DNA of 64,000 nucleotides. Source: Plumapathes pennacea. Its lineage: Eukaryota; Cnidaria; Anthozoa; Antipatharia; Myriopathidae. The notes under the pieces are model-generated. The model was not told the origin of the DNA and searched no databases. It saw only the letters and a program-made list of their open reading frames with translations. A program made the position numbers and the translations under genes. Positions 931-40,343 of this stretch are shown here, in pieces. Every line of letters starts with the position of its first letter. Position 1 is the stretch's first letter. Where the stretch lies: NCBI GenBank assembly GCA_964036295.1, contig OZ038471.1, positions 8,410,684-8,474,683 of the forward strand, given 5' to 3'.

Positions 931-1956
931 TTATTGCCATGCGGTTCTCTTCCTTGGGTTAGTTATTGGATTGGTGCTAGGCGCTTGGATAGAATTTGAC
1001 CCGCTGGGCGTCAATATTTTGCGATATTCCTTTCTAAACGCCTTGTTCATAACGCCGTATATAACTGGGTTTATTGCGCTGCTCAGCGCACCCATAATGC
1101 TATACGTCATATGCACAAACCGCGACGACGTGTTAACGCCGGCAACACCAAGGATAGTGATAAAAAGCATCGGAAGCCAACAAATAGAAAACCCAATAAT
1201 TACAGCAAACAGGGTTTGGTTGACGTTAATATCTTCGACACTGAGTCCCAATCGGGAGTTACTGTTCGGGTTCATGGTCTTCCTATGACGACGAATAGCT
1301 GCATAGACCCGAGCGTAGCAAACTATCGCGACTATCCACGGAACTGCCAGAAAAATTAATATGATAGCGATCATTGCAGTCAGTGCCACAAGTTGAGCTT
1401 TGTAGAGCATGACGCAAATCGCTTTCGGTGCATAGAATCCGGTGATCGCCCATTTTGCTGCCAGAGGAAGAGACATCGTGCAGAAAACCACGAACCAAAT
1501 AGTCAAAGTATAGCCAATAGTTTTGCGTCTGGTGAAGTGTCTTCGGTAAAATGCGGCTGATCGCACGACCTTACAGTAGCGGTTTACTGCCGTGAACGAT
1601 AGTGTTATAATAGAGACGAATGCGAGGCAGTTGACAAAGTATGCCTGAACAGCACACATGGCATTCCCGAAAATCCACCTTCCTTCAATCAAAACCCCAA
1701 CTGAGAACGGGAGGCAAACGGTAGCGAAAGCTAAGTCCGAGATAGCAAGGGACACGATGGAGTAATTGGTTATGGTGCGAAGTCTTGTGTTTCTGTAAAC
1801 TGCGTAGCAAACTAAAATATTACCCAAAAGAGCAGTGATGTTGATAAGGAAGGCAAGGCTAACCTCAAAACCAATTAAAGCGCTGTGTCTCGGAGGTAAT
1901 TCAAGAAGGGACGGCTGCCCTCTGTTAGAGAGATTTGAAGTGGTATTTTCCTTCAT
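931..1956 (-). CDS. melatonin-receptor-like class A GPCR (receptor 1)
   Basis: Single-exon gene for a 341-residue seven-helix rhodopsin-class receptor. Two N-glycosylation sequons lie near the N-terminus (N4, N8). Helix 1 has the GN motif at 45-46, helix 2 has D74, the conserved cysteines are C101 and C181, helix 3 ends in NRY (125-127) instead of DRY, P206 is in helix 5, CWLP is at 259-262 and NPVIY at 296-300. NRY and the helix-8 stretch FRKEYRKI are typical of melatonin receptors, so the best family match is melatonin-receptor-like; the ligand cannot be inferred and cnidarian members are mostly orphans. It should act at the plasma membrane through G proteins. Residues 100-315 are almost identical to receptor 4 at 16869. 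It lies antisense upstream of the HEX-A exons, possibly inside a HEX-A intron. The C-terminus (SNSIQAPSTNP and on) differs from the HETGST tail of receptors 3 and 4. Confidence 0.9.
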   Translation of the reverse strand: MKENTTSNLSNRGQPSLLELPPRHSALIGFEVSLAFLINITALLGNILVCYAVYRNTRLRTITNYSIVSLAISDLAFATVCLPFSVGVLIEGRWIFGNAMCAVQAYFVNCLAFVSIITLSFTAVNRYCKVVRSAAFYRRHFTRRKTIGYTLTIWFVVFCTMSLPLAAKWAITGFYAPKAICVMLYKAQLVALTAMIAIILIFLAVPWIVAIVCYARVYAAIRRHRKTMNPNSNSRLGLSVEDINVNQTLFAVIIGFSICWLPMLFITILGVAGVNTSSRFVHMTYSIMGALSSAINPVIYGVMNKAFRKEYRKILTPSGSNSIQAPSTNPITNPRKRTAWQ

Positions 1957-6860: not shown

Positions 6861-7847
6861 CTACGCCATGGTCACCCGTTTCGACCGCCGTTTTGGTACA
6901 CAGGATGGCAGTATCTGGAGAAATTCCTTCCTGAACTCTTTGTGCATTACACCATAAATGATTGAATTTATGGCGCAACTTAACGCACCCATGATACTGT
7001 AAGTCATGTGCAAAGAACGCGACGATCTTCCAATCCCATACATATGAAGGAATGAGATAAAAACTGTGGGAAGCCAGCAAAATGAAAAACCACCAACAAC
7101 CGCTAGCAAAGTTCGCGTAATTTTGATGTCCTCGACACTTGATCCCAACTGTGAATTGGCAGCCGTGTTCACTTTGTGCTTCTGAATGGATACGAAAACC
7201 CGCACATAGCAAACCACTGCGACTATCCAGGGAATTACAACGACAAAAGATATAATCATCAACATGGCGGACAGAGGTGCGGCTCCAGCTTTATAAAAAT
7301 AGATACAACATGCTTTTTGTCCTGAAAACACAATGTCTGCTAAAGACGAAGCTGGTGGCACAGCCGATACACAGAATGCCACAACCCAAATCATTACAGT
7401 GAAGACAATGGTCTTGTGTTTGGTGAAGTGCCTCCGAAAACTCGCTGCGGATCGCACGATCTTAAAGTAGCGGTTTACTGCCGTGAATGTCATTGTTAAA
7501 ATGGAAGCTGAGGCTAAAGAGTTTATAAAGTAGGCCTGTACAGCACAGAGGACGTTCCCGTAAATCCATTTTCCATGGATCAAGACCCCCAACGAGAACG
7601 GTAAACAAACGATTGCGAAAAGTAGATCCGAGATTGCCAGGGACACGATAGAATAGTTGGTTACAGTGCGGAGTCTAACGTTTCTGTAAATGGCGGAGCA
7701 AACCAAAACATTGCCCCAAAAAGCGGTGATGTCAATAAGAAAGACCATACCCACTTCAAAGACAACCAGAGCTACGTGTCTTGCAGGCAGCTCGAAAGAG
7801 GAGGGTTTCTTCCCGAGAGTGAGATTCGAAGAAATGTTTTCGTTCAT
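6861..7847 (-). CDS. melatonin-receptor-like class A GPCR (receptor 2, divergent)
   Basis: Single-exon, 328-residue seven-helix receptor of the same subfamily, clearly more divergent than the other three. Sequons at N4 and N8; GN at 45-46; D74; C101 with C180/C181; NRY at 125-127; P206; CWLP at 257-260. Helix 7 has NSIIY (294-298) instead of NPVIY. Loss of the NPxxY proline is also known in melatonin receptors (NAxxY), which supports the family call. The carboxyl end is basic (CVPKRRSKRVTMA) with a cysteine that could be palmitoylated. The ATG at 7847 aligns with the starts of the paralogues. A copy of its first codons and 5' flank lies just upstream at 8236-8460. The ligand is unknown; the receptor is probably active because all core residues are intact. 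Confidence 0.9.
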   Translation of the reverse strand: MNENISSNLTLGKKPSSFELPARHVALVVFEVGMVFLIDITAFWGNVLVCSAIYRNVRLRTVTNYSIVSLAISDLLFAIVCLPFSLGVLIHGKWIYGNVLCAVQAYFINSLASASILTMTFTAVNRYFKIVRSAASFRRHFTKHKTIVFTVMIWVVAFCVSAVPPASSLADIVFSGQKACCIYFYKAGAAPLSAMLMIISFVVVIPWIVAVVCYVRVFVSIQKHKVNTAANSQLGSSVEDIKITRTLLAVVGGFSFCWLPTVFISFLHMYGIGRSSRSLHMTYSIMGALSCAINSIIYGVMHKEFRKEFLQILPSCVPKRRSKRVTMA

Positions 7848-8235
7848 CTTTCTGAAGTCAAAGAGAAAAAAGCCGTGCTGCTCCTTCTATTTGTCATGAC
7901 AGAGATAATAGAAATTTAAATTAGGGAAAGCTGTGTTTGCTTTGTATCCAGCTTCTCTGACAACATCCTTAGTTCACTGGAGTTTTCTTGATTTTTTATC
8001 TTGCACAAGCTCATTTTTATAGTGAAAAGTAGAAAGCTGCCATAAGTGGAGCTTGTAAAGGTTAGTACAGTAAAACATTATCAGTGATGAGGGAGAATTC
8101 CTAGTTTAATTAGCTTTCATCTAAGCAAGGTATCGAAAGCCAAGCCGTTTTCCTTGCTGCCTGATATATTGCTGGTGACAAATTGAAGGAGAAAATAGAA
8201 GTTGATTCATATACCGCGGAATTGTGTGCGGTAAG

Positions 8236-8460
8236 GAAAACTATACCGACTTCAAAGTCAACCAATGCTACGTGGCTTGTAAGCAACTCGGAAAACCGAG
8301 GGTTTCTTCCCGATATTAAAATTCAAAAAAACGTTTTCGTTTATCTTCTCTGAATAAAAAAAAGATAAAAAGGATGATAAGTTTCTATTTGTATCAGACA
8401 TACGGAACTTTAAATAAACCATGTTGTATTTGCTTTGCCTCGCCGTAAGCATCCGTAGTT
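8236..8460 (-). pseudogene. relic of a receptor 2 duplicate (5' end and 5' flank only)
   Basis: Read on the minus strand, this segment aligns with the first ~30 codons of receptor 2 and about 100 bp upstream of it. INENVFLNFNIGKKPSVF corresponds to MNENISSNLTLGKKPSSF, and the flank keeps TTTGCTTTG..CATCC-like blocks. The start ATG is changed to ATA and the rest of the receptor is absent. This is a truncated tandem duplication, not a gene. Confidence 0.8.
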
Positions 8461-11102: not shown

Positions 11103-12212
11103 TCCCTCTTTATATCGGAAAAAGTTGGCTCGGGGACCCGAGTCACCCTCTCCCGAGTCAAGTTTACCGTGCGTTTACATGGAGAAGTTGTCCCGGGTAA
11201 ACCAGGTCAACGCTGGCCCTCTGGGTTTGGAGACCGGAACAATTTTTAAAACTCAGTTTATAAAGCCCACGGACGACGGACCAAAGAAAGATCGTCCTAT
11301 CGTTGATTTCTGTGCCCTTGTGTTTTCAATTATGACGAAAGTTTGTTTTCAAAAGGCTTCCGTAAACGCGAGTTTTCTTTCCATCCGAACCAGTGCTTAC
11401 ATGACGAAAAGTTGTCCCGCCATCCAGGGTCACCCTATCTAATCAACCGAGTGTCCCTGCATGCTCGCAGGATTAACCAGTTCCCCAAGCGAAGTTGTGA
11501 TTTGTCATGTAAACGCTCCCTTTGATATACCGTAAAATTCCGAAAATAAGCCCCTCCAAATATAAGCCCCTCAAATTCGAAGCGCAAAAAGCCCTCCTAT
11601 AATAAGCCCCCCTGGGCTTATATTTGGGATTTGCCCTCAAATACAAAATATGCCAAAGCAAATTACACATACTGGTACCATTACGGTCAAGCTTTTTTTA
11701 TTTAGTTTATTGTCGTTTACGTAGTGCACTCCTCACTCACGCCTCGGATTCACACGTTAGATTTCTAAGAACTTTGAACTACCGTGTACCGTATGAACTA
11801 TAAACATAATACGGTATGACATTATGTACGGTATTCCATTTTCAATAAAGTTTGTTGCTGTTGTGTTTGAAGTTGGCATATTCAGAGAAATTTAAGTTGT
11901 TACGAATTTCTAGTTAATGCCCCAATATTATCATTTGCACATGGAAAAATTGCGGACACAAATTTCCCTCCAATTATAAGCCCAGCAGATTTTGAAACGC
12001 AAAGTTCCGAAACAAACGCAAAAAAAAATAAAAATAGAAATAAATAAATAATAAATAAATAATAATAAAAAAAAACTGTGAAAAATATAAGCCCCGGGGC
12101 TTACTTTCGGAATTTTAAGGTATAAAGAAATGTATGAATCGTTGGCAAGCCAAGGGTGACTCGGGGAGAAGGGTGAGTCGAGTCCCGGGCCAACTTTTTC
12201 TCATATAAAGAG
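11103..12212. repeat. inverted-repeat-bounded element containing a nested MITE
   Basis: The left end CCTCTTTATATCGGAAAAAG followed by TTGGCTCGGGGACCCGAG matches, inverted, the right end at 12146-12212 (CTCATATAAAGAGGG). This suggests an older element of about 0.5 kb later interrupted by the 591-bp MITE at 11530-12120. Only its right end is present in the second segmental copy (16135-16202). Confidence 0.5.
11530..12120. mobile_element. 591-bp non-autonomous DNA element (MITE), TA target site, empty site preserved
   Basis: Terminal inverted repeats are CCGTAAAATTCCGAAAATAA at the left and the complement of TTACTTTCGGAATTTTAAGG at the right, flanked by TA at 11528-11529 and 12121-12122. The paralogous duplication has the uninterrupted sequence GATATATAAAGAAATG at 16103-16118, an empty site that fixes element ends and a 2-bp TA duplication. 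The interior has several AATAAGCCCC motifs in both orientations and no coding capacity. TA duplication suggests the Tc1/mariner superfamily. Confidence 0.88.
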
Positions 12213-12238
12213 GGCCCTAGTTTAAATGGTTCCTACGT

Positions 12239-12662
12239 ATTCGAGTCTCGGGAATGCCACTTAAATCGAGGATTTCACGGCGCAAGTCTGCGGTTAGAAA
12301 GGCCCACATGCACTTAGACTAGACCAGAGGGTAAGCCTGAAAAATGTAAGATCAGAGTAGCAAATGCATCATTTTATTTGTATGTGGTTCTTTCGGAAGG
12401 ATGAGAAGATAACTGTCAGACGCTTGTCATCTCTTGATATTATGATTTTTTGCATTTTAAGGCATGAACAACAGGGCCAAGGCACTTTTTCAAGACTTCA
12501 AATTTCAAAGCAAATAAAAACTTGTGGGTTGGTGATGTACCGAAAATTTCCTTACCTCCTCAGTTGAAAGACTCCGCTCTGAAAATATCCGGTCTCAAAA
12601 GTGCCGTCTTGTTTTTGGACAACGTTCACCAAGTCGTTTCAAACAAAAGTGTCTCCTACTCA
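12239..12662 (+). pseudogene. conserved upstream block with possible exon pair, copy 1 (frameshifted)
   Basis: This block is conserved with 16223-16652. It has a donor-like GGTAAGCC at about 12338 and an acceptor-like TTTTTTGCATTTTAAG ending near 12462, after which a short frame begins with MNNRA. Compared with copy 2, an extra A in GACTTCAAATTTC breaks that frame after about 15 codons. It could be a 5'-leader exon of the receptor transcript or a fragment of another gene carried in the duplication. I do not recognise the peptide. Confidence 0.35.
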
Positions 12663-12880
12663 AATTAGTAGCGATGCTAATGGACTTTTTGACACTTTAA
12701 TGAAGTTATTCATTCATCTCTATCGTCAACTAATCTACAGCAGTAACTTAACGCTATTGGACAGTGTTCATTGAAGATCTGAAGAAAGCAGGTGCTTTTC
12801 GATAGTTATTATCCAGCAAATAAAAGAATGTTTGAAGGCTCGATAAAGATTAGTTACCTACCATCTGAACAAGTCAAAAG

Positions 12881-13870
12881 ATGGAGGAACATATTTCTTC
12901 AAATCTCACTAACAGATGGCAGTCCTCCTTTCTTGAACTACCTCCGAGACACAACGCCTTAATTGGTTTTGAGGTTGGCCTCGCCCTCCTTATCAACATC
13001 ACTGCTCTTTTGGGTAATATTTTAGTTTGCTACGCAGTTTACAGAAACACAAGACTTCGCACCATAACCAATTACTCCATCGTGTCCCTTGCAATCTCGG
13101 ACTTAGCTTTTGCTATCGGCTGCCTCCCGTTCTCGGTTGGGGTTTTGATTGAAGGAAGGTGGATTTTCGGGAATGCCACGTGTGCTGCTCAGGCATACTT
13201 TGTCAACTGCCTCGCATATGTCTCTATTATAACACTATCGTTTACGGCAATAAACCGCTACTGTAAGGTCGTGCGATCAGCCGCATTTTACCGAAGACAC
13301 TTCACCAGACGCAAAACTATTGGCTTTATTTTAACTATTTGGTTCGTGGTTTTCTGCACGGTTTCTCTTTTTCTGGCAGCAAGATGGGCGTTCACCGGAT
13401 TCTATGCACCCAAAGCGATTTGCATCATGTTCTACAAAGCCCAACTTGTGGCACTGACTGCAATGATTGCTATCATATTAATTTTTCTGGCAGTTCCGTG
13501 GATAGTCGCAATAGTTTGCTACGCTCGAGTCTATGCAGCTATTCGTCGTCATAGGAAGACCATGAACCCGAACAGTAACTCCCGACTGGGACTCAGTGTC
13601 GAAGACATCAACGTTAACCAAACTCTGTTTGCTGTAAGTATTGGGTTTTCTGTTTGTTGGCTTCCGGTGCTTTTTATCCCTATTCTTGGTGTTGCCGGCG
13701 TTAACACGTCTTCGCGGTTTGTGCACATGACTTACAGCACCATGGGTGCTCTGAGCAGCGCAATAAACCCAGTTATATACGGCGTTATGAACAAGACGTT
13801 TAAAAAGGAATTTCGCAAAATATTCACTTCCTGCAGGTCAAATTCCGTCCACGAAACAGGCAGCACTTAA
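12881..13870 (+). CDS. melatonin-receptor-like class A GPCR (receptor 3)
   Basis: Single-exon, 329-residue seven-helix receptor. Sequon at N8; GN at 45-46; D74; C101 and C181; NRY at 125-127; P206; CWLP at 259-262; NPVIY at 296-300; helix-8 stretch FKKEFRKIF. The first 97 residues are nearly identical to receptor 4, while between about 100 and 315 receptors 1 and 4 agree with each other against this one (for example CAAQ versus CAVQ, LAYV versus LAFV, CWLPV versus CWLPM). It lies 170-900 bp downstream of the conserved duplication block, so it probably shares its promoter with receptor 4. The ligand is unknown. Confidence 0.9.
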   Translation: MEEHISSNLTNRWQSSFLELPPRHNALIGFEVGLALLINITALLGNILVCYAVYRNTRLRTITNYSIVSLAISDLAFAIGCLPFSVGVLIEGRWIFGNATCAAQAYFVNCLAYVSIITLSFTAINRYCKVVRSAAFYRRHFTRRKTIGFILTIWFVVFCTVSLFLAARWAFTGFYAPKAICIMFYKAQLVALTAMIAIILIFLAVPWIVAIVCYARVYAAIRRHRKTMNPNSNSRLGLSVEDINVNQTLFAVSIGFSVCWLPVLFIPILGVAGVNTSSRFVHMTYSTMGALSSAINPVIYGVMNKTFKKEFRKIFTSCRSNSVHETGST

Positions 13871-13979
13871 ACTAATCAAGGAAATTGTCGACTTGACAAT
13901 GAGATGGTGCTAGTAAACAATTAGTGAGAACAGCAAGAGCCGGTACTAAAACGGGCGTGACTCGAGCTTATTTTGACCC

Positions 13980-16047
13980 ATAAAATGTACCAGTAAAAGC
14001 ATACCAAAATTTTACAGTTTCGATGCCTCTAATTGCCCACAATTCGACGATGCTTTAAGAAAGATCTCCAAAAAAGCTGAACAAGAACTGCTAACACTGA
14101 TGGTGAATCAACATGAACACAACATCGACTGTGACAGTGAGACCATAAACAGCCTCAACGCACAGCTTCCGACCCTGTTCCCAGACCAGCCTCAGCTCAA
14201 CCTAGCTCACAAGAGAGTCCATTCAGCTAGCCACAGATCCTTGCAAAGGAGAAACAGAAACCACAAAAGTGCCCAAAAACCCTCAGCAACTCCTACTCAC
14301 TATGCCGCACAACAGGCCAAATTCCAGGAACTACAGGCCATGATGAACACTTTTCAAAACTCCAATGTATCTTCTTGTAATAAGAATAAAACTAGAGTTT
14401 GAAAGTACCCAAGTGTCTCTGTCTCTTACTCACATCGCGCCAACCCTGCGCGACTACACCCTAAGCACAGCTTAAAGCGAAAAACTAGACACAAAACACT
14501 TCGCAGTTATAACAACAAAGAACTAAGGACCCAAAACGAACGGTTCATTAAAAACCTTTCAACCAGAGTCCTACCTGAAAGCGAAGTCAATTTACTGTCT
14601 AAAGGTCTCAAATTCATACCTACCCCCACCACACCGGCTTCAACTAAGTACCTTCTAAAAGGACTTCAACAGATTTGCCCGTTCTGTGCGCATACGCTAC
14701 ATGTTTGCTGACTCAAAATCCACCGCTCATTCATTCCATGTGGTCTCAATGGCAGCCATCACCACAACCCTCTGTGACACAACTACATTCTAGCGGCTGC
14801 ATTGACAAAATGACACATAACTTCCTTGAAAAAGACCAAAAAAAAAAAAAAAAAAAAAAAAACCACCCAGAATCCCTGAATTTTATACATTACAAAAACT
14901 CACAAACCAACACCCGCCGGACGTCCTATAGTCTCGAGTGACGGTGGCCCCACAGAACATATTTCCAGTTTTGTGGAAATAAAAGACACAACTGATTTCA
15001 TCAACGTTATCGAGAAAACATCTTTACCAGACTCAGCTGTTTTAGCTTCAATTGATGTCTGCTCCCTCTACACAAACATTCACCAGCACAAGGGAATCAA
15101 CACTGTTTGTCGCTATTATGAAGACCACTACAAGTCCGCACTATCTATCCCTACAGCAGATCTTAGGGAACTCATGCGACTCATTTTAGAAGAAAACTCC
15201 TTCAAATTCAAGGACAAGCATTATCTGCAGACCCATAGCAATGGGTACCAAGTTGGCTGTGGCTTTCTCGGTTATTTTTATGGCCGACATTGAGACAAAG
15301 CTACTCTCAGCCAGTCCATTCAAACCCATTATCTGGAAGAGATTCATTGATGACATTTTTTCTGCGTGGACTACACCAGAAGCGCAAGTCGACAACTTTG
15401 TTGATTTCGCTAACTCATTCCACCCAACAATCAAATTCACTTGTGAAAAGTCATCTTCCGAAATTTTTTTTCTCGACACTAAAGTACACAAAGGCCCCCG
15501 CTTCCGTACAACAAAGGTTTTAGATGTTCAAACGTTTTTTAAGCCGACAGAGACCTTCCAGTATACACACTTCTCATCTTGCCACCCTTTGAGCGTTAAA
15601 AAGGGATTTATTAAAGGAGAAGCTTTACGTCTACTCAGAACCAACTCTGTTAGAGAATCGTTCGAAAAACTCAAATGGGAATTTGAATTCTTCACCTAAG
15701 AGGCTATCCACATAAACTCGTTCAAACAGTTCTTAACGAAGTCCAGTTCTCATCAAGACAATCGGCTCTTAGTAACAAAACCCGAACATCGAGTAGGTCA
15801 GTCCTACCGTTTGTCACAAGTTTTAATCCGGCCGTACCGAATCTCAAAAAGACTCTTATGAAACACTGCTACGTGATATCTAATCAGCCAAACCTTGCTA
15901 GAATCTTTTCAAATTCTCCCATTGTCTGTCACAGAAAGGAAAACTCATTTAAAGACTATTTAGTCCGAGCGAAGATTCCCTCAAGAGACTAATTAAACCA
16001 TATCCCGGTAAACGATGTAGAAGGTGCGGCAGTGGCAACTTACACAA
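13980..16047 (+). mobile_element. Penelope-like retroelement, frameshifted and 3'-truncated
   Basis: Successive frames give Penelope-type reverse transcriptase blocks in order. N-terminal region at about 14012-14402 (14100-14402 is open, Gln/Asn-rich). LLSKGLKFIPTPT at about 14598-14636. THKPTPAGRPIVSSDGGPTE at about 14893-14952. SIDVCSLYTNI near 15050-15085. Then MGTKLAVAFS at 15241 and the catalytic-type FIDDIF near 15345, FLDTKVHKGP, and HPLSVKKGFIKGEALRLLRTNS. The cysteine-rich linker KRCRRCGSGN follows near 16010, and the element stops at about 16047, before any GIY-YIG endonuclease. It has several frameshifts and an internal 25-bp A tract (14838-14862), so it is dead. It abuts the left edge of segmental copy 2. 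Confidence 0.85.
14838..14862. repeat. poly(A) tract inside the Penelope-like element
   Basis: About 25 adenines within the coding part of the element, between the N-terminal part and the GRPIVSS block. Either an expansion of a Lys/Gln codon run or a later insertion. Confidence 0.8.
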
Positions 16048-16222
16048 CTGATTAACCTGTTCCCCAAGCGAAGTTGTGATTTGTCATGTAAATGCTCACT
16101 TCGATATATAAAGAAATGTATGAATAGTTGGCGAGCCAAGGTGACTCGGGGAGAAGGGTGAGTTGAGTCCCGGGCCAACTCTTTCTCATATAAAGAGGGC
16201 CCTACTTTAATTGGTTCCTACA

Positions 16223-16652
16223 TATTCGAGTCTCGAGAATGCCACTTAAATTAAAGATTTCACGGCGCAAGTCTGCGGTTAGAAAGGCCCACATGCACTT
16301 TGACTAGACCAGAGGGTAAGCCTGAAAAATGTAAGATCAGAGTAGCAAATGCACCATTTAATTTGTATGCGGTTCTTTCGGAAGGATGAGAAGATAACTG
16401 TCAGACGCTTGTCATCTCTTGATATTATGATTTTTTGCATTTTAAGGCATGAACAACAGGGCCACGGCGCTTTTTCAAGACTTCAATTTCAAAACAAATA
16501 AAAATTTGTGGGTTGGTGATGTACCGGAAATTTCCTTACCTCCTCAATTGAAAGACTCCGCTCTGAAAATATCCGGTCTCAAAAGTGCCGTTTTGTTTTT
16601 GGCCAACATTCACCAAGTCGTTTCAAACAAAAGTGTGTCCTACTCAAATTAG
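16223..16652 (+). other. conserved upstream block with possible exon pair, copy 2 (open)
   Basis: The first part has a short frame MPLKLKISRRKSAVRKAHMH ending at a TAG, then a donor-like GGTAAGCC (16315-16322). A ~125-bp intron-like stretch ends in TTTTTTGCATTTTAAG, and a 67-codon frame runs from 16449 to 16652 (MNNRATALFQDFNFKTNKNL and on). The frame is intact here and broken in copy 1. No domain or signal peptide is visible. It could be an upstream-ORF-bearing leader of the receptor mRNA, or a small gene. Confidence 0.35.
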
Positions 16653-16868
16653 TAGCGATGCTAATGGACTTTTTGACACTTTAATGAAGTTATTCATTCA
16701 TTTCTTCGTCAAATAATCTACCGCAGTAACTTGACGCTATTGGACGGTGTTTATTGAAAATCTGAAGAAAGCAGGTGCTTTTTGATACAGTTATTATCCA
16801 GAAAATAAAAGCATGATGTTTGAAGGCTCGATAAAGATTAGTTACCTACCATCTGAACAAGTCAAAAG

Positions 16869-17867
16869 ATGAAGGAATATATCACTTCAAATCTCACTAA
16901 CAAAGGGCAGTCCTCCTTTCTTGAACTACCTCCGAGACACAACGCCTTAATTGGTTTTGAGGTTGGCCTCGCCCTCCTTATCAACATCACTGCTCTTTTG
17001 GGTAATATTTTAGTTTGCTACGCAGTTTACAGAAACACAAGACTTCGCACCATAACCAATTACTCCATCGTGTCCCTTGCAATCTCGGACTTAGCTTTTG
17101 CTATCGGCTGCCTCCCGTTCTCGGTTGGGGTTTTGATTGAAGGAAGGTGGATTTTCGGGAGTGCCATGTGTGCTGTTCAGGCATACTTTGTCAACTGCCT
17201 CGCATTCGTCTCTATTATAACACTATCGTTTACGGCAGTAAACCGCTACTGTAAGGTCGTGCGATCAGCCGCATTTTACCGAAGACACTTCACCAGACGC
17301 AAAACTATTCGCTTTACTTTGACTATTTGGTTCGTGGTTTTCTGCACGATGTCTCTTCCTCTGGCAACGAGATTGGCAGTCACCAAATTCAATGCACCGA
17401 AAGCGATTTGCATCATGTTCTACAAACCGCGCCGCAGACTTGTGCAGGCTCAGACTGCAATGATCACTATCATAATACTTTTCTTGGCAGTTCCGTGGAT
17501 TGTCGCGATAGTTTGCTACGCTCGGGTTTATGCAGCTATTCGTCGTCACAGGAAGACCATGAACCCGCACAGTAACTCCCGATTGGGACTCAGTGTCGAA
17601 GATATTAACGTCAACCAAACCCTGTTTGCTGTAATTATTGGGTTTTCTATTTGTTGGCTTCCGATGCTTTTTATCACTATCCTTGGTGTTGCCGGCGTTA
17701 ACACGTCGTCGCGGTTTGTGCATATGACGTATAGCATTATGGGTGCTCTGAGCAGTGCAATAAACCCAGTTATATACGGCGTTATGAACAAGGCGTTCAG
17801 AAAGGAATATCGCAAAATATTCACTCCCGGCGGGTCAAATTCCATACACGAAACAGGCAGCACTTGA
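16869..17867 (+). CDS. melatonin-receptor-like class A GPCR (receptor 4, mosaic)
   Basis: Single-exon, 332-residue seven-helix receptor with the same core motifs: GN, D74, C101, NRY at 125-127, the helix-5 proline shifted by three, CWLP, NPVIY and FRKEYRKIF. Residues 1-97 match receptor 3, and most of residues ~100-315 match receptor 1 at both protein and synonymous sites. The tail (HETGST) matches receptor 3 again. The exception is helix 4 to extracellular loop 2 to early helix 5 (about 165-200), which is unique and has a three-residue gain: FYKPRRRLVQAQ replaces FYKAQLVAL. That places four basic residues just after the conserved loop cysteine, near the expected ligand entrance. The ligand is unknown. 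Confidence 0.9.
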   Translation: MKEYITSNLTNKGQSSFLELPPRHNALIGFEVGLALLINITALLGNILVCYAVYRNTRLRTITNYSIVSLAISDLAFAIGCLPFSVGVLIEGRWIFGSAMCAVQAYFVNCLAFVSIITLSFTAVNRYCKVVRSAAFYRRHFTRRKTIRFTLTIWFVVFCTMSLPLATRLAVTKFNAPKAICIMFYKPRRRLVQAQTAMITIIILFLAVPWIVAIVCYARVYAAIRRHRKTMNPHSNSRLGLSVEDINVNQTLFAVIIGFSICWLPMLFITILGVAGVNTSSRFVHMTYSIMGALSSAINPVIYGVMNKAFRKEYRKIFTPGGSNSIHETGST

Positions 17868-18017
17868 GCTTATCAAGAAAGTTGTCGACTTGACAACGTA
17901 ATAGTGTTGGTATAACAGTTAGTGAGAACAGCAAGGGTCCGCTTTTGGTGAAAGAGTATAGTGACAGGAGACCCATCCGAGAGCCGGAGAGACTATTTGT
18001 AATGGTAATAGGACTGA

Positions 18018-37248: not shown

Positions 37249-38148
37249 TCACGTAACATACAGAACATCGATCGCTGTTAGGGTTACATCATCGTTGGGA
37301 GCGTTCTTATGGGTTACAACTCGCCAAACCATGTACATGAGCCGGGCAATGAAGATGGCACACGAAGTGGCCAGCAGGACGACCGTGAAGATGGAATTTC
37401 TCTTGGAGGATTCGAAATTCCTCGCAAGGCTGGCTGACAGCGCCCAGATGAGGGCTGGGTAGATGGTCAGAGTGTAACGCACAAACCGCTCCAAGATTGT
37501 GTTTTCCAGGATGAACCAAACAATTACATGCACGCCGATGATGGAAAGGGCGATGGTGGAGGATATGTCTTGTTCGACACCTTGAAAATAAGTTATAGCT
37601 GAGGCCAAGTTAAGATAGAGAGAAACAGTGGACCACGTGGCGTACAAAGCAATGCCATTGTTCACCAAGACTTGAAGCGCCCAGAAATCAAACACGGGGA
37701 ACCTATCGTTGTAAAGTTTGTGCAAACGCCAATAAGACTCAGCCAGAGCTGCGTACTGAACGAGGACGGAGGCCAAGAGCGTTAAAGCGCATATTTGGAG
37801 TCTCCCCCAAGTGTAGAGGATAGCCCAAGTTACGTGGCAAACCCTCGACAGCATGAACAACACAAAAAACAACGGCGAGAGAACTTCTGGGACACGGCTG
37901 CAGCACAGAAGACTAACTGAATACAAAATCCACGTCGACTGCCAGGCGTAAATCAAATACCAGATTTGGAGCACCCAGCGGGCTGGCTTGATTTCAAGAT
38001 AGTAGTTTCTTGATATGTTTACAGTGCTTTCATTGCCGAACAGCGATCGTAAAGGACCATTAACATCACGAGTTGCACTGCTGTTGATTACCAGCGACAC
38101 AGCAAAGACAAGCAGGTTCACTACAGTTACAGTGGCTTGCAGTTTCAT
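37249..38148 (-). CDS. TspO/MBR-like multipass membrane protein, paralogue A
   Basis: Single-exon frame. The ATG at 38148 is chosen because the paralogue at 40343 also starts MKLQ; an upstream in-frame ATG at 38184 would add 12 residues. The product of about 299 residues has a hydrophobic N-terminal segment and some seven to nine further hydrophobic helices. The stretch EIKPARWVLQIWYLIYAWQS corresponds to EITPAGWAFSIWGLIYLWQA in the neighbour, which resembles the Pro/Trp-rich signature (P-x-W-x-F...W..LY) of TspO/MBR proteins. Here the glycine and phenylalanine are lost. TspO proteins bind porphyrins and sterols, but function for this longer animal form is not established. N-glycosylation sequons lie in the first loop. 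Tandem with paralogue B. Confidence 0.75.
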   Translation of the reverse strand: MKLQATVTVVNLLVFAVSLVINSSATRDVNGPLRSLFGNESTVNISRNYYLEIKPARWVLQIWYLIYAWQSTWILYSVSLLCCSRVPEVLSPLFFVLFMLSRVCHVTWAILYTWGRLQICALTLLASVLVQYAALAESYWRLHKLYNDRFPVFDFWALQVLVNNGIALYATWSTVSLYLNLASAITYFQGVEQDISSTIALSIIGVHVIVWFILENTILERFVRYTLTIYPALIWALSASLARNFESSKRNSIFTVVLLATSCAIFIARLMYMVWRVVTHKNAPNDDVTLTAIDVLYVT

Positions 38149-38305
38149 GGCGCTCCCCAGTGTATCCAAGGGACACTGGCTCACAGCTTATATTATCTCT
38201 TAGCTTATATTGACACGTCTCAGACAAGTGGCATATTTTACAACCGGTTCCTACTTTACGTATTGGTTTTGAAACACGGGCCCCATAACGAGGCCACACG
38301 CTTTT

Positions 38306-39440: not shown

Positions 39441-40343
39441 TTAGCAACTCATATAACGTTCGTTTTCCTTAAGCTTCATGTTTTCTAGCAGAGAGGCGCG
39501 CTCCTGTGTTTTTAATCGCCGGACCAGGATTACGAGCCGAACCAAGAATAGGACAGATGCCACGCCGAGTAACACCGCCGTGAAGATGGAATTTCTCTTG
39601 TGGGAGTTAAAATTTTTGGCGATGCTGGCTGACAGCGCCCAGATCAGGACTGGGTAGATGGTCAGAGTGTAACGAACGAACCGTTCCACGATTGTGTTTT
39701 CCAGGATGAACCAAACGATTATTTCCACTGACAGTATGCACAGCGAGATGGTGCAGGCGACGTCTTGTTTTACACCGTGGAAATATGTTAAGGCCATGGC
39801 CAAGTTCAGCAGCGAGGCAACAGCGCACCAAGTGGTGTACAAGGCAATTCCGTTGTTCACCAGGATCTGCAAGGACCAGAAGTCTGCCTTGGGAAATTTG
39901 TCGCTGATGAGCTTGTTCAACCGCCAGTAAGACACGGCCAGCGTTGCCATAAGGGTGAAGAGCGTGGCGAATAAGATGAAAGCGCATACCTGCACCTGCT
40001 CCCAGCTGAACAGAACAATCCACGACACGTTACATGCGCTTGCGAGTAAATAGAACATGAAGAACAGCGGCGACAGAACTTCTGGGACGAAGCTACGGCA
40101 AAGAAGGCTCACGGAGTACGCGATCCACGCAGCCTGCCAAAGGTAGATTAAGCCCCAGATGGAAAACGCCCAGCCGGCCGGAGTAATCTCCAGATAGTAC
40201 TTGTCCGATACATCTCCGGTGCTGAGGTTGCCGAAGAGCCAATGTAAGGGACCGCTCCGCACATCACTTGCGCTGTAGTTGATAAACAGCACGACGACAA
40301 AGACGATCAAGTTTAGGACGATTGCTACGGATTGCAACTTCAT
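39441..40343 (-). CDS. TspO/MBR-like multipass membrane protein, paralogue B
   Basis: Single-exon gene of 300 residues. An N-terminal hydrophobic helix (5-22) is followed by a loop with sequons, the signature ITPAGWAFSIWGLIYLWQA at about 53-71, and seven or more further helices. The most conserved part between paralogues is about 155-255, including LQILVNNGIALYTTW and VWFILENTIVERFVRYTLTI. It ends in a short charged cytosolic tail. The Pro-x-x-Trp-x-Phe pattern supports a distant TspO/MBR relationship; the double length and low similarity leave this open. Its promoter has paired TTACGTAA and CACGTG sites 100-190 bp upstream, not seen before paralogue A. Confidence 0.8.
   Translation of the reverse strand: MKLQSVAIVLNLIVFVVVLFINYSASDVRSGPLHWLFGNLSTGDVSDKYYLEITPAGWAFSIWGLIYLWQAAWIAYSVSLLCRSFVPEVLSPLFFMFYLLASACNVSWIVLFSWEQVQVCAFILFATLFTLMATLAVSYWRLNKLISDKFPKADFWSLQILVNNGIALYTTWCAVASLLNLAMALTYFHGVKQDVACTISLCILSVEIIVWFILENTIVERFVRYTLTIYPVLIWALSASIAKNFNSHKRNSIFTAVLLGVASVLFLVRLVILVRRLKTQERASLLENMKLKENERYMSC

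Follow-up and report, generated by a model that had tools for sequence, protein, structure and literature searches.

Does a receptor gene that resembles two of its neighbors in turn owe its coding sequence to copying between them, even when one of them lies on the opposite strand? This question is raised by R4, one of four intact single-exon open reading frames (ORFs) for class-A G protein-coupled receptors (GPCRs), R1, R2, R3, and R4, in the first 18 kb of a 64,000-nucleotide stretch of DNA from Plumapathes pennacea (positions 8,410,684-8,474,683 of the 16.9-Mb contig C10; assembly of 290 Mb and 24 contigs), referred to here as the window. The initial annotation had described R4 as a mosaic of R1 and R3 that arose by conversion between inverted loci, an R1-like tract having been copied in. 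The available parts of two papers report or suggest gene conversion in coral fluorescent proteins (PMC2481297, PMC4657232). Conversion among cnidarian GPCRs is not reported in the titles or abstract openings of the papers among the matches listed for coral GPCRs, cnidarian tandem duplicates, Nematostella paralogues, and Acropora, and the available parts of PMC12005167 and PMC9897584 contain nothing on receptor conversion. From the analysis described below, we conclude with a probability of about 0.8 that ectopic (interlocus) gene conversion has moved short stretches of sequence among R1, R3, and R4.

Receptor genes of the window

R4 is a rhodopsin-family (class A) GPCR with a full-length 7tm_1 match (E value 1.3e-43, profile positions 1-260 of 260), and R1 is located 15 kb from it on the opposite strand (Table 1). 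R1, R3, and R4 share 92-93% DNA identity among themselves, with a coding divergence of 7-8%, and R2, which shows no sign of exchange with the other three, is 65-66% identical to them. The closest solved relative of the receptors in a phmmer search was the melatonin receptor MT1 (7db6, 5e-32), with dopamine D2, beta-1, and H2 receptors close behind; we do not claim the name melatonin receptor for R1-R4. Among the best candidates scored in a protein search of the genome, R1-R4 were each other's only close relatives, and the next matches by E-value had 35-40% protein identity.

Table 1. Receptor genes, duplicated units, and tracts of R4, numbered from the first base of the window
Feature	Position	Strand	Description
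R1	931-1956	-	ORF; intronless rhodopsin-family GPCR; 7tm_1 E 3.2e-43; inverted relative to R3/R4
R2	6861-7847	-	ORF; diverged paralogue (65-66% nucleotide identity); outgroup
R3	12881-13870	+	ORF; duplication partner of R4
R4	16869-17867	+	ORF; mosaic receptor
R3 copy of duplicated unit	11471-13937	+	broken by a ~600-bp element (11526-12124)
R4 copy of duplicated unit	16050-17935	+	first ~155 bp match a genomic repeat
Tract A	16906-17160	+	R3 (12918-13172) = R4, 0 differences in 255 bp
Tract B	17161-17366	+	R1 and R4 close, 4/207 differences (counted from 17160)
Tract C	17367-17568	+	R4 outlier with 9-bp insertion; R1 (1266-1458) and R3 (13379-13571) alike
Tract D	17569-17746	+	R1 (1088-1265) = R4, 0 differences in 178 bp; TM6 to TM7
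Tail and 3' flank	17822-17935	+	mainly R3/R4 alike again (tail HETGST)

The view that R3 and R4 are duplication partners was confirmed by a shared stretch of 1.83 kb with 92.7% identity. In the duplicated unit of approximately 1.9 kb, the two copies mismatch at 39 of 814 positions upstream and at 10 of 66 downstream of the genes (alignment bins summed). The element in the R3 copy, which is absent from the R4 copy, has 29-bp inverted ends that are 93% complementary. The repeat at the 5' end of the unit (16050-16204) matches the genome in at least 43 places, the R3 and R4 copies among them, and a 31-bp inverted pair (11104-11134 and 12184-12214) surrounds the repeat in the R3 copy. Between R3 and R4, an open frame at 15241-15699, which gave no Pfam match, resembles a piece of a Penelope-type reverse transcriptase. 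A partial copy of the R2 start (8232-8354, 80%) lies just upstream of R2. Further along the window, two membrane-protein-like open frames on the minus strand (37249-38184 and 39441-40343) are alike by eye; the former had no Pfam match at 0.001 and the latter none above the Pfam cut-offs. An Rfam search of the window returned no match.

A three-way patchwork in R4

We aligned R1, R3, and R4 and found 110 variable sites, at which R1 and R4 agree in 41 cases, R3 and R4 in 34, and R1 and R3 in 31, all three being different at the remaining 4. The sites are clustered, with 42 switches of affinity among the 110 (permutation P = 5e-5), and so are the 34 sites in silent codons only (12 switches, permutation P = 2e-4), although such shuffling tests, interval scans included, are not specific by themselves, the switch test having given low P values in other receptor groups too. 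The longest silent run was significant for R1=R4 (P = 5e-4) and R3=R4 (P = 7e-4) but not for R1=R3 (permutation P = 0.35).

After a start of mixed affinity over the first ~40 bp (16869-16910), R4 follows R3 up to about codon 97, as had been annotated, and at 15 variable sites in a row in tract A (16911-17123) R1 is the only gene to differ. From residue 100 on, R4 had been read as R1-like. Long stretches shared with R1 do occur further on, but tract B consists mostly of private sites of R3, most of them amino-acid-changing, the sites at 17167-17359 being mainly of the R1+R4 type, and in tract C, R4 stands apart from R1. At 30-31 of the 204 sites of tract C, R4 differs from R1 and from R3, and it carries three inserted residues there (the positions given for R1 and R3 are arithmetic from the alignment). 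Aligned with MT1, the tract runs from the end of TM4 through extracellular loop 2 and TM5. This stretch, in which R1 and R3 agree and R4 is the outlier, had been overlooked in the description of R4 as a mosaic of those two genes. In tract D it is R3 that differs, at 16 sites, of which 10 are in codons silent in all three genes, and the R1+R4 sites span 17583-17738. Silent identity with R1 had been put at 200 bp or more at the 3' end; it is exact for 178 bp and is followed by three R1-R4 differences in 17747-17821, where affinity is mixed until 17821. The return of the tail and 3' flank to R3 was seen as described, and 17822-17935 has no significant similarity to the 3' flank of R1.

A three-state hidden Markov model (HMM), one parameter of which was at the edge of its grid, placed switches near 16893, 17148, 17364, and 17576 and changed state for a single base at 17412. 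A heavily penalised change-point model set breaks only at 17367 and 17507 (BIC 844.8 for three segments vs 862.0 for four). The switch predicted near 17155-17165 is approximated by the HMM break near 17148, but there is no change-point break at 17161. R1 is the only gene to differ at 6 of the 71 variable sites in 17124-17821 and at 28 of the 39 towards the gene ends (P = 9e-12, with core and end limits for the Fisher tests picked after the data were seen), and an interval scan for such sites was reached by 0 of 1000 shuffles.

We polarized the sites with R2, the only outgroup, which is distant and partly saturated. Tract A contains 6 shared-derived R3+R4 sites, 7 private to R1, and 2 with a third state. 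In tract B, 7 sites are private to R3, 3 private to the other genes, and 3 of a third state, with a single shared-derived site each for R1+R4 and R3+R4; over 17124-17366, seven R1=R4 sites are R3-private and one is shared-derived. Tract C has 10 shared-derived R1+R3 sites, 8 private to R4, 4 other, and 10 of a third state, and 10 of the sites at which R4 differs match R2. In tract D there are 8 shared-derived R1+R4 sites, 6 private to R3, and 2 of a third state. Because of these counts, a real grouping signal is present in tracts C and D and none in tract B, and a copy from R1 was ruled out for tract B, where most sites are R3-private. The best likelihood trees joined R1 and R3 in tract C, R1 and R4 in tract D, and, by a negligible margin, R3 and R4 in tract B; approximately unbiased (AU) tests, with R2 as the sole outgroup, allowed every topology at the 0.05 level in all seven alignments, the lowest value being 0.066 for tract D. 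The mosaic is real, but it is a three-way patchwork and not a simple R3-R1-R3 succession, and the initial annotation is confirmed in part.

Silent sites and flanking sequences

The upstream flank of R1 is homologous to those of R3 and R4 over ~250 bp (score reached by 0 of 300 shuffles), with a mismatch of 25-27% (best local), 30%, or 38-41% depending on the alignment. No significant similarity was found for the R1 3' flank, where 81 of 300 and 218 of 300 shuffles reached the score. Silent sites in the R1 coding region diverge from those of R4 and R3 by 10-14%, which is far below the flank: 23/237 silent vs 75/254 flanking differences between R1 and R4 (P = 3e-8) and 30/238 vs 76/256 between R1 and R3 (P = 3e-6). 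The R1 coding region has therefore been homogenized. An origin of R1 as a retrocopy is not favored, since the ~250 bp of upstream flank are still recognizably homologous. GC-biased conversion was also considered and set aside, third-position GC being alike between tracts by eye.

The silent differences between R3 and R4 are distributed very unevenly, at 0/66 in tract A, 2.5/54 in B, 14.5/50 in C, and 11/40 in D. In tracts C and D together (25/90), they are about six times as frequent as differences in the upstream flank (39/814, P = 7e-11), and the excess is also seen against both flanks together (49/880, P = 6e-10) and for tract D by itself against the upstream flank (P = 6e-6); against the short 3' flank alone, the comparison of C and D gives P = 0.08. 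Divergence in this 3' flank is itself higher than upstream (P = 0.002). Judged on silent sites alone, the match between R3 and R4 over tract A does not reach significance (P = 0.11). Because silent divergence in tracts C and D exceeds that of the upstream flank, these two tracts were probably acquired from outside the R3/R4 pair, either by R4 or by R3.

Direction of copying and origin of the central tract

Direction and timing of exchange were assessed indirectly, from a single assembly. For tract D, the genome still contains a copy, R1, that is identical over the whole tract. Silent divergence between R1 and R3 in tract D (11/40) is not distinguishable from that of the R1 flank (76/256, P = 0.85; 85/209, P = 0.16), so that tract D looks like native R1 sequence, and it was most likely copied from R1 to R4, the reverse being less favored. 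Given the higher divergence of the R3/R4 pair in its 3' flank, the 5' half of the pair could have been homogenized instead, and for this reason the reverse direction keeps some probability. Conversion between inverted loci is well supported, and for 17569-17746 copying from R1 into R4 is the direction that we favor. As a story of a single donor and a single recipient, it is too simple: the R1 coding region has been homogenized, R1 and R3 share the center, and tract B is mostly divergence of R3.

The center of R4 is derived from neither present-day R1 nor present-day R3. Among the best candidates scored, a DNA search of the genome with R4 tract C returned only R4 itself, R3 (85%), and R1 (84%). 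The candidates scored in whole-genome protein and DNA searches (121 of 1654 in one search) included no close paralogue beyond R1-R4, and none exceeded 85% identity to R4 tract C; no relatives were found in other genome contigs or viral contigs. We therefore rejected a third present-day donor for tract C, nothing closer than R1 and R3 being present in the genome among the best candidates scored. R4 tract C may instead be old R1 sequence that was delivered with tract D before R1 was overwritten by R3-type sequence, or it may be the trace of a lost copy.

The latter case, in which R4 tract C and perhaps tract D came from a receptor copy that is lost, unassembled, or present only on other haplotypes, is a conceivable but doubtful account. 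It would explain why R4 tract C stands so far from both R1 and R3, with a 9-bp insertion of its own and 10 differing sites that match R2; no such copy was found among the best candidates scored in the 290-Mb assembly, however, and old R1 sequence suffices as the origin. Somewhat further from our expectation, and in our judgment unlikely, is a variant of the conversion explanation that differs in direction and makes R1 the chief recipient, from R4 in tracts B and D and from R3 in tract C, so that the R3/R4 duplication would be older than its homogenized 5' half suggests. R1 was overwritten in its coding region in any event, as its flank comparison with R4 indicates, and the similarly high R3-R4 silent divergence in tracts C and D, together with the 10/66 of the 3' flank, would fit an old pair. 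This variant, however, requires homogenization of the upstream 800 bp of R3/R4 plus tract A, and the flank-like silent divergence between R1 and R3 in tract D is what native R1 sequence would show.

Two further explanations dispense with exchange, and we give very little credence to either. Private changes could cluster because constraint is uneven or because individual receptors are under positive selection; this reading would agree with the replacements private to R3 that make up most of tract B, with the position of tract C in loop 2-TM5, with the weak topology tests, and with the lack of specificity of the switch test. It does not account for runs of R1=R4 and R3=R4 in silent codons alone, for the sixfold R3-R4 silent excess in tracts C and D over the upstream flank, or for R1 coding silent sites far below the R1 flank. 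An assembly chimera or uncollapsed haplotypes are just as improbable, because the copies differ in surroundings and orientation, the insertion is found only in the R3 copy, coding divergence is 7-8%, and the window sits within a 16.9-Mb contig.

Interlocus conversion thus remains our preferred explanation, and the sequence contains what it predicts: tracts whose closest relative differs from that of their surroundings (by shuffling tests that are not fully specific) and a signal at silent sites, except for the R1=R3 run (P = 0.35). The coding core would be the stretch still similar enough to pair, and flanks and gene ends would keep their own history. Copied tracts may measure perhaps 180-400 bp, despite the distance and inversion of R1. 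In an older step, the R1 coding region would have been overwritten by R3/R4-type sequence; later, tract D of R4, and perhaps tract C as well, would have been copied from R1; next, R1 tract C would have been overwritten by R3-type sequence, so that what R4 now carries in tract C would be left over from old R1 sequence or from a paralogue since lost. Mechanistically, one gene probably served as the template during break repair in the other. Such exchange would mix the modules TM1-2, TM3-4, loop 2-TM5, and TM6-7 between receptors, which might influence ligand choice.

A second cluster and other receptor groups

The comparison was extended to 40 additional receptor loci in this genome. A cluster on contig C1 (39.356-39.397 Mb; L053-L056; 39356100-39397200), with two compared receptors per strand and a further fragment at 39,376,505 that was left out of the comparison, encodes receptors with about 38-40% protein identity to R4. 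Its flanks are 1.5-4.6% diverged within a strand, and between strands the 700-bp flanks on either side gave no collinear blastn match. When the strands are compared, silent sites in codons 44-266 are 7-9% diverged, against 44-49% for the 5' end and 34-37% for the 3' end (core vs ends, P = 2e-8 for L053-L054); the within-strand value in the core is 6%. Of the 41 sites in the core, 4 are strand-specific, all at 379-444, as are 56 of the 67 towards the ends (P = 1e-14), and the interval scan was reached by 0 of 500 shuffles; silent-only switch tests were weak (P = 0.02, 0.16, 0.17, and 0.37). An excess of core over flank divergence within a strand was seen in the pair L053-L055 (P = 0.005); in L054-L056 it was not significant (P = 0.14). 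The layout is similar to that of the window cluster, where R1-only sites are likewise few in the core and common at the ends, and conversion mainly in the coding core explains both clusters.

The switch test is unspecific, because low P values were also obtained in several other receptor groups: 6e-4 to 9e-3 for L034-L037, 1e-3 to 0.21 for L041-L044, and 2e-4 to 0.15 for L066-L069. Comparison of silent sites with flanks gave mixed results in these and further groups. L042 differs from L044-L047 by 8-10% at coding silent sites vs 3-5% in the flanks, and L034-L035 by 3.5% vs 16% upstream and 0.9% downstream. Divergence is even for L036-L037 (18.5% silent vs 19.5% upstream), L044-L047 have flank-like silent divergence among themselves without excess, and L070-L071 show no silent excess over the flank. 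No clustering of sites was found in L070/L071/L072 (P = 0.77). In this group (L070-L072, C4:2620800-2659000), L072 differs from L070/L071 by only 5.5-6.6% at coding silent sites, but detected flank similarity between them stops within 34-71 bases. L048 (C10:13267900-13271900) and L049 (C10:13429900-13433900), 162 kb apart, have identical coding sequences and 1 mismatch in 1400 flank bases, and are either a very recent duplication or an assembly duplicate.

Discussion

Conversion of GPCR genes is a known kind of event, seen here also in a second, more distantly related cluster of the same genome. As far as the available parts of the respective papers go, a close parallel is the mammalian CCR2/CCR5 pair (PMC2880985), in which closely spaced class-A GPCR paralogues likewise swap coding tracts including TM segments and extracellular loop 2; those are chemokine receptors, whereas the present case involves three exchanging copies, one of them inverted, plus a second cluster. 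Clustered GPCRs are also found in the mouse V1R pheromone receptor clusters (PMC2644715), where conversion was inferred, as here, from out-of-line silent divergence, but from two mouse species and not from one genome. The coral genes meffGFP and meffRFP (PMC2481297) similarly combine a tract identical at every silent site with a diverged part, but they do not encode receptors, and direction was argued there from a related sequence of the kind that is missing here. BMP8A and BMP8B (PMC2720389) are inverted paralogues in concerted evolution like R1 and R4, but these seven-exon growth-factor genes are ~235 kb apart, unlike the intronless receptors 15 kb apart in the window.

In the available part of a coral genome paper (PMC10236652), the domain found most often in the amplified gene families of corals is rhodopsin-like GPCR (34 of 192 groups), and gene conversion is called very rare in corals, against which our finding is notable. 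As the argument made there is based on exon/intron structure and on mutations that are mostly in introns, intronless receptors escape it. We further suggest, tentatively and as a rather unlikely generalization, that the coding cores of intronless GPCR clusters in this animal make up a common pool across both strands, in which conversion repeatedly mixes TM modules between inverted copies and the ends, tails, and regulatory flanks remain private to each gene.

The middle of each receptor gene shows a different family history from its ends. With conversion mainly in the coding core, as it appears to be in two clusters, gene trees of such receptors, their duplication dates (Ks), and scans for selection on them would give misleading results. 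If the idea of a shared pool of cores is true, these receptors would keep their expression identity and swap ligand-pocket sequence.
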